A stretch of DNA of 29,259 bases from a virus, in the IMG/VR virus record IMGVR_UViG_3300050029_000111, positions 1 through 29,259 of that record; one strand, written 5' to 3'. Position 1 is the first letter of the stretch, and the number at the start of each line of letters is the position of its first letter. The notes under the pieces were generated by a model. The model ran no database searches. It was not told the DNA's origin and saw nothing but the letters and a program-made list of their open reading frames with translations. Both the position numbers and the translations under genes were made by a program. Positions 25,492-29,259 of the stretch are shown in pieces.

Positions 25492-25696
25492 AATTTTCAA
25501 TTAATTCTAACGCCTCATTACCATCTTTGATTGCTTGATCAATGTCTGACATTTTAATTTCTTTAATAATATCTTCTTTTTTAAGTTTCTTAATAATGAT
25601 TTTTAATGTTTCGATCCAATCTTTGTTTTTGCCACAATCGTCGGTAATAAGTGATTGAAGTAATTTTATCTTGTATTGGGTAGTTGAACTTTGCAT
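25460..25696 (-). CDS. Small helical acidic/basic protein, unknown
   Basis: 78 residues from the ATG at 25696 (MQSSTTQYKIKLLQSL). A GTG at 25759 would add 21 residues but overlap the upstream gene by 32 nt, so I prefer the ATG without being certain. The chain is mostly amphipathic helix (WIETLKIIIKKLKKEDIIKE, then DIDQAIKDGNEALELIENYE). No domain recognised. Part of the tightly packed small-gene cluster. Confidence 0.55.
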   Translation of the reverse strand: MQSSTTQYKIKLLQSLITDDCGKNKDWIETLKIIIKKLKKEDIIKEIKMSDIDQAIKDGNEALELIENYEKKQTKRSN

Positions 25697-25727
25697 AAGG
25701 TTATTGTTTTTTATTGTTATAGAGGGT

Positions 25728-25955
25728 CTATATTCGTGTTTTGATTGATCGGGTGTCACCCGCAGTCTCTTTTATCTTATCTGAATGTTCAAGGTAATAA
25801 TCAACATAATACTCTTTATACCACTGAAGGTTCTCTTGACGATAAGCCGCTGTTCGAGCTTTAATCTTTTCTCTATTCTTTTTGTAGTATGCCGCAGCTA
25901 TTTTCTTGTGATAAGCTTTGTTAGAGTTGTTCTTGGGGTTTAATTTCTTTGTCAT
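25728..25955 (-). CDS. Small Tyr/Lys-rich protein with YYKKNREKIKAR motif
   Basis: 75 residues, ATG at 25955. Residues ~14-60 (YHKKIAAAYYKKNREKIKAR, then AYRQENLQWYKEYYVDYYLE) repeat a 'aaYykknreKi.a' helical unit that is common in the N-terminal parts of phage HNH endonucleases and related proteins, but no HNH domain follows. It is the first gene of the minus-strand transcription unit, facing the 982-bp intergenic region; TATATT lies close upstream of the start and may be a -10 box. Confidence 0.6.
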   Translation of the reverse strand: MTKKLNPKNNSNKAYHKKIAAAYYKKNREKIKARTAAYRQENLQWYKEYYVDYYLEHSDKIKETAGDTRSIKTRI

Positions 25956-25998
25956 ACAATATATAAATATAATGCTAAATAAGAAAAAGTTGAATTAT

Positions 25999-26190
25999 TT
26001 TCAATTATCTTTAAAATTGAAAGGTAAAGAGTTACAAGTAAGAAAATCTGTAAATTCTGTTTTATCCACTGTGGATAAAACAAAAATACCACATAACACA
26101 CGAAAAGAACAGACCTTTTATCCACGGTGGATAAAAAGTGTATTCCTCACAACACCCAAAAAGAAATCTGTCCGCCAAATTGACGGACAG
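25999..26190. promoter_or_regulatory. Ladder of four inverted repeats, two DnaA-box-like
   Basis: Four dyads: TTTCAATT/AATTGAAA (25999..26022, 8-nt spacer); GTTTTATCCAC-T-GTGGATAAAAC (26059..26081, perfect 11-bp arms); TTTTATCCAC-G-GTGGATAAAA (26116..26136, perfect 10-bp arms); and CTGTCCGCCAA-A-TTGACGGACAG (26168..26190, one mismatch per arm). The last three share a single-base centre and lie 56 and 53 bp apart. The minus strand at 26070..26078 reads TTATCCACA, a consensus DnaA box. This stretch holds no convincing gene. The likely role is operator or origin sites, inferred. Confidence 0.65.
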
Positions 26191-26310
26191 AATAGTGCTG
26201 AGAAATTAGCAAAAAGGAGGTTTTTTATATAATAAGTAACTCATACCTATATGCTGTATAGGAGATATAGGGATAGAAGTAGAATAAAAATGAGATAATC
26301 TACCAAAACT

Positions 26311-26586
26311 ATGACATTCTTGGGCGGTTTGTCATAACTTGTCATAGTGTTTGTCATATAGGAAACCATTGGTATCATTACCTAAAGTCTTATTATATGA
26401 CAAAATGACAATATTTACCCTTATGTTAAGAACAAGAGAAGGGGTAATAAGGTTTACGAGTGGAAGTCACTTTTTTTGTCATTTTGTCATTTTAGTGACT
26501 TTACCCGCATAAACATTGACGATTCTATATGACAACTTGTATGACATGGTCTTTTGGATTGTCATAAAAAGATATAATAAGTCATA
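26311..26586. repeat. Array of 11 TTGTCATA-like 8-mers (iteron-like)
   Basis: Copies of TTGTCATA or near variants lie at 26329..26336, 26339..26346, 26351..26358, 26476..26483, 26484..26491, 26559..26566 (and GTCATA at 26581) in one orientation, and as TATGACAA-like at about 26310, 26396..26403, 26404..26411, 26528..26535 and 26540..26547 in the other. The pair at 26476..26491 is framed by an inverted repeat AAGTCACT (26464..26471) / AGTGACTT (26494..26501). There is no gene here. Such arrays are usual for replication-initiator binding or multi-site operators. Confidence 0.7.
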
Positions 26587-26676
26587 AAATATGTCCTATT
26601 ATTAGACAGTGCATAGCTGCATAGTCACAAACAACTTGACTAAGAGAAATATATAAGATCTCTACATCTTAGGGCA

Positions 26677-26763
26677 TTTTATATGTTGGAGTGGAAAGGA
26701 GCTACTTTGCAGTTGGCATCCTATGCAAAACATATAAAAAGTATTTTTATTAAAATAAGTTGA
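26677..26763 (+). other. Long inverted repeat with a possible 26-codon leader ORF
   Basis: TTTTATATGTT (26677..26687) and AACATATAAAA (26729..26739) are perfect 11-bp complements enclosing 41 nt, with a small GCAT-CCT-ATGC hairpin inside (26716..26726). An ATG at 26683, with AGGG about eight bases upstream, opens a 26-codon ORF (MLEWKGATLQLASYAKHIKS...) ending with TGA at 26761. It may be a leader peptide, a small RNA structure, or chance. Confidence 0.4.
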
Positions 26764-26819
26764 TATTTTTTACGATTTATTGTATTTTGGTAGAAATGCA
26801 TTATATGTATATGTTGGAA

Positions 26820-26933
26820 GTCGAGAACTGAACCCAATTTTAAAATACCTCGGTGACTCCTAAAAAATGTGTTCTCGACAAACCTTCAACAAAGATAGCC
26901 GAGGTATTTTTTAATAAAAAAGTCGAGAACACA
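26820..26933 (+). promoter_or_regulatory. Interleaved complementary repeats in the helicase leader
   Basis: Elements in order: B0 GTCGAGAAC (26820..26828), A1 AAAATACCTCGG (26842..26853), B1 TGTGTTCTCGAC (26868..26879), A2 CCGAGGTATTTT (26899..26910, then two more T), B2 GTCGAGAACACA (26922..26933). A1/A2 and B1/B2 are each perfect 12-bp complements; B0 and B1 share a perfect 9-bp match. The pairs interleave, so they make a pseudoknot or alternative folds. A1:A2 resembles a terminator. The B cores are exactly 51 bp apart. The helicase ATG lies four bases after B2. Confidence 0.75.
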
Positions 26934-26937
26934 AATT

Positions 26938-28191
26938 ATGAGTAATACACAAACGAAACCGGTTAAGAAGCCCCTAAACATTGTAACGTCTATTAATCAA
27001 GACATCAATGATAACAATGTTATCTGTCCCCATGAAAATTCTTCATGGAAATTAAATAGCAATCCTATTAGACTTGATGAACTATCCATTTTCCTATGGA
27101 CTTATCGAGCAGCTAATGGTTTACCTGAAATTACCAAGGATAAGATTAATAACATATTATTATCTAAAGAATATGATGTTAAAGCCAAGAATCTTTCAAA
27201 TTTCAAAGACCTTATTCGATATAATCCGCTGGCTAAGGATTCTTGTGATGATATAATTAAAATATTAACCCATACAAATTATCATTTAATGTATCCAATC
27301 GTTTTAAAGCATATTGTATGGACAGTTAAGCGTAGATTATATGATTTACCAGTATATTGTCCTATATTCCTAAATATTTATGGTTCGGCTGGTTCTGGTA
27401 AATCAGAATTTGTCAAAGCAATGTTTAGTATTTTTCCAGCTACTTTAAAATCGCAAGTATCAAATGCCGCCGATTTGTTTAATGATGAACGTCAAGCCTT
27501 TCGTTTTGTTGAGAGTTATGTTATCTCGATGGACGAATTGACGGGTTTAAATAAAACTGATATGAATAAATTAAAAAATCAAATTGATGCTGAAAAGATT
27601 GTCTATCGTATGTTAGGATTTAATAAATTGGCCGAGGGTAAGAATAATGCTCAGTTAATCGGCACGAGTAATACTCGCTTACAAAATACATTATTTACCG
27701 ATTCTGATTTACGCAAATGGTGTGAGATTGATATTTTTAAGTATGAAGATAAAGAGGTCCCTGAAAAATTAGTAACTCCTCTCCAGAAATACGATTGGTT
27801 AAATTTCTGGCAAGCCATTGATGAAAATGCTAAATCTCCCTTTGAAGATTCTGAAATTTATAATGCCTTTCGCCGCTGGACTGAAGAACGTTGTTTAACA
27901 GAAACTCCAACGGTTGAATTTATCAAGAACTATATTGAAAAGAATGGTAATGCATTCAAGACAGTGGATGAAATCTGGGAAGCATATACCGTTCAAGTTG
28001 ATGATAAAGCAATGTCAAAGAGCAAATTAAAAGAATTAATTGAAAAGTATGGGTTTATAAAACATCGTATTACAAAGGGTAGAGGATATAATGTGCCTAA
28101 TATATCTCAGTGTAAGTATTTCTCAGAGGAGGATCAATTACATTATAAATCAACGGCCAATAAAGTAGAATCACTTAACAACAACTGGTAA
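26938..28191 (+). CDS. Replicative helicase, VirE/SF3-like P-loop ATPase
   Basis: 417 residues, ATG at 26938, no Shine-Dalgarno sequence. Residues 1-135 form a helical N-terminal part; the P-loop domain has Walker A GSAGSGKS (149-156), Walker B VISMDE (195-200), the KNQID...IVYRMLG region (213-227) and sensor LIGTSN (240-245), then DSDLRKW (255-261) with R259 as a candidate arginine finger. This is the order seen in VirE / DUF5906 and SF3 phage helicases, which unwind DNA as hexamers at the phage origin. The C-terminal ~100 residues (FRRWTEERCL ... KLKELIEKYGFIKHRITKGR) look like a winged-helix DNA-binding end. A primase gene follows after four bases. It is preceded by an unusual structured leader. 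Confidence 0.88.
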   Translation: MSNTQTKPVKKPLNIVTSINQDINDNNVICPHENSSWKLNSNPIRLDELSIFLWTYRAANGLPEITKDKINNILLSKEYDVKAKNLSNFKDLIRYNPLAKDSCDDIIKILTHTNYHLMYPIVLKHIVWTVKRRLYDLPVYCPIFLNIYGSAGSGKSEFVKAMFSIFPATLKSQVSNAADLFNDERQAFRFVESYVISMDELTGLNKTDMNKLKNQIDAEKIVYRMLGFNKLAEGKNNAQLIGTSNTRLQNTLFTDSDLRKWCEIDIFKYEDKEVPEKLVTPLQKYDWLNFWQAIDENAKSPFEDSEIYNAFRRWTEERCLTETPTVEFIKNYIEKNGNAFKTVDEIWEAYTVQVDDKAMSKSKLKELIEKYGFIKHRITKGRGYNVPNISQCKYFSEEDQLHYKSTANKVESLNNNW

Positions 28192-28195
28192 TAAT

Positions 28196-29110
28196 ATGAA
28201 TATAAGCATTATTGTAGATTCTTTGGTCTTGCCTGATAAAACCTTATTGGGCAATGAAGTAAGCGATTCCGTTCAAATTGATGATTTAAATGATCTGGCT
28301 TACGTGGCAACTAACTTTCATTTTGCTCCGGCAACTTTTCATAACACCCCTTATAAATCGGAATGGTTAACGGATAAAAATAAAAATTGGAAAGTTGGAA
28401 AGATTGGCCGGTGGAAAAACTTGAAAAATATCGAACAAATTCAATTCTTATCCTTTGACTTTGATGATGGAACAATATCCTCGGCTCAAATTCACATTCA
28501 ATTAAAAGATATTAATCATTTAATATTGAGTAGTAAATCACATATGGTTGATAAACAGGATGGCCGAGGAATTATTGAAAGATTTCATGTTTTTATTCCG
28601 TTGGATCGCCCCATAACTGACGGTGAATTATATAAATTTTCCTGTAAAAATTTTGCCGAATCCAGAAAATGGCCAGTCGATCAAGCCGTTATTGAAGGTT
28701 CCCGCTACTTTTTCAAACATACTAATGTATTATATATTGAAAATAATAAATGTGTAAAATATTTGTGGGGGTTTGAAGAATTATTAAAGGCTAATAAACA
28801 ACGGGAAGAATTTTGGAAAAAACAAAATATCAAGAAACAACAATCAGAATCATCACCCAGAGAAAATAATTATTCTCAGATTGGTTCTCCTTTAGAAAAA
28901 TTCCAATCGACTAAAACTTATAAATCATTACTAAATGGTTCGTTATCAATGGATGGTGATCGTTACAATAATAGTTCAAAAACATTAGGAGTCATGGTAA
29001 AATGTGGCTTAAAATATAAGGAAATAATGGAATTATTTGATAAATACTCAAATTATGGTTCAAATTTTACTCGTGAAAGCGTTGAAAGACGATTAAATGC
29101 TTGGGCATAA
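28196..29110 (+). CDS. Archaeo-eukaryotic-type primase (AEP)
   Basis: 304 residues, ATG at 28196, four bases after the helicase stop. AEP motifs: FLSFDFDDG (84-92) with D88/D90 as the metal-binding DxD motif; LSSKSHMVDK (111-120) and IERFHVFIPLDRPI (127-140), the 'sxH ... R.Hv..pL' motif with H116 and H131; and WPVDQAVIEGSRYFFKH (159-175) with D162 as the third acidic position. The C-terminal part (MDGDRYNNSSKTLGVMVKCG ... FTRESVERRLNAWA) resembles a PriCT domain. It would make primers for the adjacent helicase. Helicase and primase are separate here, whereas many phages fuse them. Confidence 0.85.
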   Translation: MNISIIVDSLVLPDKTLLGNEVSDSVQIDDLNDLAYVATNFHFAPATFHNTPYKSEWLTDKNKNWKVGKIGRWKNLKNIEQIQFLSFDFDDGTISSAQIHIQLKDINHLILSSKSHMVDKQDGRGIIERFHVFIPLDRPITDGELYKFSCKNFAESRKWPVDQAVIEGSRYFFKHTNVLYIENNKCVKYLWGFEELLKANKQREEFWKKQNIKKQQSESSPRENNYSQIGSPLEKFQSTKTYKSLLNGSLSMDGDRYNNSSKTLGVMVKCGLKYKEIMELFDKYSNYGSNFTRESVERRLNAWA

Positions 29111-29160
29111 TAACAAAAATCCTTATGTTTTCTAACAACACTATTATATTTATATCTTAT

Positions 29161-29259
29161 ATGAAACGAACTAACCAAGATCGAGAAGGCTATAAACAAT
29201 ATGAAAAGCTGGCAAAAAAATATTATGCTTCTTATGTTGAATTATGTGAAGATGATAAA
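29161..29259 (+). CDS. Third replication-strand gene (partial, runs off the window)
   Basis: The frame is open from the ATG at 29161 to the end of the window, 33 codons: MKRTNQDREGYKQYEKLAKK, then YYASYVELCEDDK. The N-terminus is charged and helical, and too little is present to assign a function. It follows the primase stop by 50 nt of AT-rich DNA that has a TATATTTATAT stretch just before the start. It may be a co-transcribed replication accessory gene. Confidence 0.6.
   Translation, partial: MKRTNQDREGYKQYEKLAKKYYASYVELCEDDK

Follow-up and report, generated by a model that had tools for sequence, protein, structure and literature searches.

Interleaved complementary repeats in front of a phage replication helicase gene and their possible role as a cis-acting leader RNA

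In the repZ and repA leaders of IncI-alpha and IncL/M plasmids, an upstream short open reading frame has a leader-peptide role, and a short loop-to-loop pseudoknot turns translation on. Leaders of replication genes have also been described as attenuators in the case of pT181 repC and pIP501 repR, in which mutually exclusive stems form and a terminator-like inverted repeat with a T-run is located just 5' of the start (PMC5703833). In the phage T4, the translational operator of gene 32 has a pseudoknot of approximately 28 nt at the mRNA 5' end, after which come UUAAA repeats with less structure (PMC535899). Gene starts that lack a Shine-Dalgarno site and have an A/T-rich upstream context are a trait of Bacteroidota, and the structure of the start region tunes initiation in flavobacteria (PMC6847099), while leader-peptide attenuation of the trp type has been reported in Flavobacterium psychrophilum (PMC9723704). 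The regulation of replication genes is little known in phages of such Bacteroidota-like hosts without Shine-Dalgarno sites.

The stretch of DNA analysed in the present study (the window) is a virus record of 29,259 bases from an unclassified phage, the structural genes of which run leftward and two replication genes rightward. An evident Shine-Dalgarno site was found at no gene start in the window, and an A/T-rich context was present upstream of many of these starts, which together suggest a Bacteroidota-like host. At the end of a 982-bp divergent intergenic region, directly 5' of a phage DNA-replication (helicase) gene, five short mutually complementary repeats occur in the order B0-A1-B1-A2-B2 and constitute an element of approximately 115 nt (Table 1). 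The helicase protein matched PF05272 with 32.3 bits (cut-off, 25) and phage primase/helicase profiles at 1e-7.

Table 1. Repeats, reading frames, and candidate signals in and around the element (window coordinates).
Feature	Position	Strand	Description
B0	26820..26828	+	GTCGAGAAC
A1	26842..26853	+	AAAATACCTCGG; 5' arm of the terminator-shaped hairpin
B1	26868..26879	-	TGTGTTCTCGAC; partner is B0 or B2
A2	26899..26915 with tail TTAAT (core 26899-26910)	-	CCGAGGTATTTT; 3' arm of the terminator-shaped hairpin
B2	26922..26933	+	GTCGAGAACACA; ends 4 nt before ATG
Spacer ACTCCTAA	26856..26863	+	Predicted pairing with 26936-26943 around the start codon, read from the minimum-energy fold
VapE-like (PF05272) helicase, 417 aa	26938..28191	+	Profile search; gene behind the leader
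Possible short leader ORF 1	26796..26831	+	MHYMYMLEVEN*; last codons are B0; too short for a coding test
Possible short leader ORF 2	26867..26914	+	MCSRQTFNKDSRGIF*; A-rich start context; from B1 to the U-run of A2
Promoter candidate 1	26760..26790	+	TTGATA-17-TATTTT, or (G)TTG-N20-TATTTTGG (Bacteroidota-like -33/-7); start ~26795
Promoter candidate 2	26786..26817	+	TTTG-N20-TATGTTGG; start ~26822
Antisense promoter candidate	26890..26921	-	TTTT-N20-TATCTTTG; start ~26885, running left

B1 and B2 are 100% complementary over 12 bp with 42 nt separating the arms, and A1 and A2 form another perfect 12-bp pair with arms 45 nt apart, which may be extended to 17 bp at 88% (26837-26853 / 26899-26915). 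B0 matches B1 over 9 bp (loop of 42) and is a direct repeat of B2 over 11 bp at a distance of 102 bp; the sequence GTCGAGAAC was found at no other place in the window. A first-pass annotation of this DNA had described the two interleaved inverted repeats and the third B core, and its coordinates were correct to the base. The repeat positions bore out its statement of an exact 51-bp distance between B cores of alternating orientation; the annotation had missed that A1 and A2 lie nearly midway between the B sites, with centre spacings of 26, 25, 27, and 24. The evenness of the five sites has a P of ~0.0024 under random placement, which is a post hoc figure. The better U-run is on the sense side (U6 vs U4), with T6 at 26907-26912 in the tail of A2.

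When the whole window was shuffled 300 times with dinucleotides preserved, interleaved perfect 12-bp pairs within 130 bp never arose, and those of 11 bp averaged 0.0033 per shuffle. Natural sequences gave the same picture: no interleaved pairs at 11 or 12 bp were present in 1.20 Mb of other viral or prophage-like loci or in 0.25 Mb from six phage genomes. The earlier judgement that two perfect 12-mers are very unlikely by chance was thus sustained by the shuffles and by 1.45 Mb of phage and prophage DNA, and the order of the elements together with the third B core makes chance even less likely. The element is real and non-random. The phage is rich in perfect 12-bp inverted repeats within 130 bp (5 in the window vs 0.39 expected), an abundance that favours neutral or chance inverted repeats, or two ordinary overlapping elements such as a long-loop terminator and an operator; we consider this explanation very improbable because interleaved pairs of at least 11 bp are missing from the natural phage and prophage DNA above and because three linked complementary elements stand evenly spaced beside a start codon.

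Relatives were sought in IMG/VR (helicase, terminase, capsid, portal, and the second replication gene), in GTDB genomes (helicase and terminase profile), in 395 genomes from the phylum to which a Paludibacteraceae genome belongs (Bacteroidota; helicase), and in GenBank phages (helicase and others). The yield of these searches was limited to two near-identical contigs and a single helicase relative at 30% (L003), the upstream DNA of which had no detectable similarity; since peptide-pattern scans can miss relatives at ~40-75% identity, the absence of such relatives is not proven. The sole other copy of the element found was in contig 3300037076_000173 (L002), with which the window shares 99.9% identity at 26731-29259 (3 of 2529 bases differ). 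Within the element, a single change, 26860 C->T, coincides with the mismatched position of the extended stem and touches none of the three helices, which speaks for the RNA reading; no repeat arm differs between these copies, which are two only. L002 lacks 26590-26730 and keeps the element, indicating that the element stays with its downstream gene, whereas the sequence immediately upstream is variable.

Several other features of this DNA were noted. The 141 bp missing from L002 are located between an array of TGTCAT repeats and the promoter region, and hold an 11-nt copy (TATATGTTGGA) of the sequence immediately before B0. The array (26311-26565) comprises 11 TGTCAT/ATGACA copies in both orientations, with 8 elsewhere in the 29 kb; it is iteron- or operator-like, is kept in L002, and adjoins an AT-rich stretch at 26590-26817 (71% AT). 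Further to the left, the leftward early region at 25689-26211 is strongly different from L002 2390-3422 (mosaic, with few aligned blocks) between flanks that are 96-99.9% identical. Two 21-bp palindromes, TTTTATCCAC[T/G]GTGGATAAAA, are placed 56 bp apart at 26060-26136 and flank a minus-strand TATTTTTG (-7-like, 26088-26081); they are operator-like for the leftward operon and absent from L002. Approximately ten tandem 51-bp units are present at 1778-2280 within a 1216-aa leftward gene. A scan of IMG/VR for the B motif returned three matches in GC-rich DNA, which look like chance. An unrelated viral contig (L010:1560-1670) carries three copies of ATGTCGAGAAC, two direct and one inverted, just upstream of an ORF; they share the B core GTCGAGAAC, possibly by chance. 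An invertible segment with B1-B2 or A1-A2 as recombination ends was rejected because the orientation is unchanged in L002 and a recombinase was not found, and an attachment or packaging site was rejected because no supporting gene lies nearby.

Nested folding of a growing plus-strand transcript with its 5' end at 26795 predicted three mutually exclusive states in the order B0:B1, A1:A2, and B1:B2. B0:B1 was the first state, with a P of ~1.0 until 26904; A1:A2 followed with a P of 0.93-0.95 at 26910-26928, and B1:B2 with a P of 0.98-0.99 from 26934 on. The predicted hairpin energies were -12.5, -13.8, and -17.1 kcal/mol, respectively, and since stability rises in the order of formation, each hairpin may displace its predecessor. 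The minus strand of the element gave a single folding state; therefore, the order is strand-specific. Under criteria that were chosen after the element had been seen (helices of at least 8 bp and loops of at least 30), three mutually exclusive long-range helices occurred in 0 of 400 shuffled leaders and two in 2 of 400, and three-state folding was found in 2 of 1294 stretches covering both strands of the whole window, the other of which is weaker (8-9 bp helices) and lies inside a coding sequence. The comparison of the leader energy with that of shuffled sequences, which the first-pass annotation had proposed, placed the whole leader below its shuffles (z -3.1; best nested fold, -31.7 kcal/mol). 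Its idea of an RNA switch or pseudoknot gains, in its switch part, from an ordered three-hairpin folding that is absent from shuffles and from the opposite strand; the evidence for the pseudoknot part is a rough energy sum, as discussed below.

Moving the 5' end anywhere between 26600 and 26820 left the relay unchanged. A transcript beginning at 26822 still formed B0:B1 in a shortened version (P 0.99 until 26900), and one beginning at 26824 did not. Promoter candidate 1 agrees with the sigma-70 consensus at 9/12 positions and with TTTG/TAnnTTTG at 8/10, and such matches are common by chance. Candidate 2 is a 9/10 match, one of 12 such plus-strand matches in the window; its start would trim B0 by 2 nt to 7 bp, which counts against an RNA relay.

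The A1:A2 stem consists of an 8-bp core (UACCUCGG/CCGAGGUA) and then U6, and has the GC-rich stem and U-run of an intrinsic terminator; together with T6, it ends 25 nt before ATG. The 8-bp core, T6, and 45-nt loop on which the terminator form had been based were all reproduced. This loop compares with 3-8 nt in intrinsic terminators, and A1:A2 was absent from the listing of a terminator scan; loops of 42-45 nt exceed what is usual for intrinsic terminators and would slow folding, which counts against the RNA reading. The positions of B1:B2 next to the start codon and of B0:B1 as a third pairing option, both previously suggested, were recovered in the sequence and in folding. When the full leader is in its minimum-energy fold, the spacer listed in Table 1 extends B1:B2 with one mismatch (26860 with 26939). 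The start region was predicted to be unpaired at 0.20 in the final state vs 0.90 when A2 is occluded, since B0:B1 then re-forms; a ribosome that has reached the end of short ORF 2 is one example of what could occlude it. The masking of the start codon is not an outlier among 28 genes of this phage, in which its opening cost (8.9 kcal/mol) ranked 3, and this counts against the leader RNA.

Taken together, we suggest as the best reading that the element may be a cis-acting leader RNA, a switch or attenuator of the helicase (replication) operon, to which we assign a probability of roughly 0.45. As RNA polymerase advances, B0:B1 would form first and enclose A1. The emergence of A2 would then allow A1:A2 to form, a hairpin with U6 in the shape of an intrinsic terminator, and if the polymerase escapes, B2 would emerge and B1:B2 would form, with its extension covering the start-codon region and lowering translation. 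The default state would be OFF twice, by termination and then by start-site masking, whereas the start would be left open by any factor able to hold B0:B1 or to block A2, for instance a protein, a second RNA, or a ribosome engaged on short ORF 2. The repeats with their rarity, position, and strand were observed directly; the relay, the order of the hairpins, and the masking of the start site are predictions of folding only; and we infer transcription from upstream of B0, termination, the host group, a signal, and a purpose, namely, the dosing of the replication helicase. The fuller proposal of a three-step strand-directional relay, in which one hairpin would topologically enclose the terminator arm, the shared arm would pass from pre-emptor to start-site masker, and transcription and translation would both be controlled, appears rather unlikely as a whole.

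The main rival to the leader RNA, which we also hold to be on the doubtful side, is an array that acts as DNA. The B sites, and perhaps the A sites, would be bound by a phage repressor or replication initiator, evenly placed on the helicase promoter and start as part of an origin or operator region with the TGTCAT repeats, and complementarity would be a by-product of alternating orientation. The exact spacing of the B centres corresponds to approximately five helical turns, with A midway and the post hoc P given above, and equal spacing is not required by an RNA mechanism and counts against it. In addition, the start of promoter candidate 2 would fall within B0, where operators are classically located, and the TGTCAT copies with the AT-rich stretch have an origin-like layout before the VapE-like helicase. 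However, two unrelated site types that are each perfectly complementary over 12 bp, and a T6 exactly in the A2 tail on the sense side, are not expected of binding sites; the B core is not itself palindromic. The operator or initiator site put forward in the first-pass annotation consequently remains a mixed case: the even spacing, the promoter candidate in B0, and the adjacent iteron-like array speak for it, while the strand-specific fold order and the failure to identify a DNA-binding repressor among the phage proteins scanned speak against it. The RNA and DNA levels could also be used together.

Two other explanations also act at the RNA level. The order A1-B1-A2-B2 is exactly that of an H-type pseudoknot, and A1:A2 and B1:B2 formed together may provide a stable translational operator for the helicase or another phage protein without a switch in time, for which T4 gene 32 is a precedent (PMC535899). 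Its loops (14, 19, and 11 nt) would be long enough to bridge 12-bp helices, and a rough energy of -31 to -34 kcal/mol is equal to or below the nested optimum; this figure was obtained by roughly adding up the two stems under an assumed penalty, and B0 is given no role. We regard a stable pseudoknot as improbable. Even less probable, and in our opinion barely likely, is countertranscript control as in pT181 and pIP501, by which an antisense RNA from ~26885 would pair with B0-A1-B1 and change the hairpin choice. The inverted repeat and T-run just 5' of a replication gene resemble the pIP501 leader layout (PMC5703833), and the antisense promoter candidate in mid-leader is a 9/10 match to TTTG/TAnnTTTG, with ~0.1 such match expected by chance within the element. 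On the other hand, promoter matches of this grade occur approximately once per 1.9 kb of strand in the window, no terminator for the candidate antisense RNA is visible, and the antisense RNA, as modelled, would prevent A1:A2 from forming, an effect contrary to that in pT181.

Returning to the leader RNA, Rfam release 15 covariance models gave no match above the gathering score anywhere in the window, and a described family with this architecture was not found in our searches. The assertion that no described element has this design was nevertheless too strong with regard to the logic, because pT181/pIP501, the IncI-alpha repZ leaders, and the T4 gene 32 pseudoknot are similar in principle. By our analysis, plasmid replication-gene leaders and the T4 operator appear to be functionally nearest, and the element is not placed in any of them. 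As in the pT181 repC and pIP501 repR attenuators (PMC5703833), mutually exclusive stems lie in the leader of a replication gene, an inverted repeat with a T-run is found just 5' of the start, a 5' sequence (here B0) vies with the last stem for one of its arms, and mid-leader has a possible antisense promoter, which is a promoter-like match only in the present case. The locus differs in belonging to a phage rather than a plasmid and in its pre-emptor, since B0 pairs with B1 and not with A1, competes with B1:B2, and encloses A1; moreover, two separate hairpins interleave here, one with the U-run (A) and one near the start (B1:B2).

With a possible pseudoknot and a putative upstream short ORF in the leader of a replication gene, the element is comparable in description to the repZ and repA leaders of IncI-alpha and IncL/M plasmids (studies cited in PMC10724649); the present element has two 12-bp helices and a predicted final state that masks the start. 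The T4 gene 32 operator (PMC535899) has in common with it a phage replication gene, an RNA pseudoknot (here a possible one) upstream of the start, and possible autoregulation, whereas the structure here would cover ~92 nt, with long helices reaching the start codon. Trp-type attenuators also use alternative hairpins, one of which is terminator-shaped, and possible short leader ORFs overlap the arms here; however, there is no run of regulatory codons, and the downstream gene encodes a phage helicase rather than a biosynthetic function. Since leader attenuation has been reported in a flavobacterium (PMC9723704), the principle fits the probable host group. If the leader RNA reading is true, the element joins termination and start-site masking in ~115 nt through three hairpins ordered in time by transcription. 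It would then be a naturally occurring instance of RNA folding in timed steps, and would give phages a counterpart to the copy-number attenuators of plasmids.
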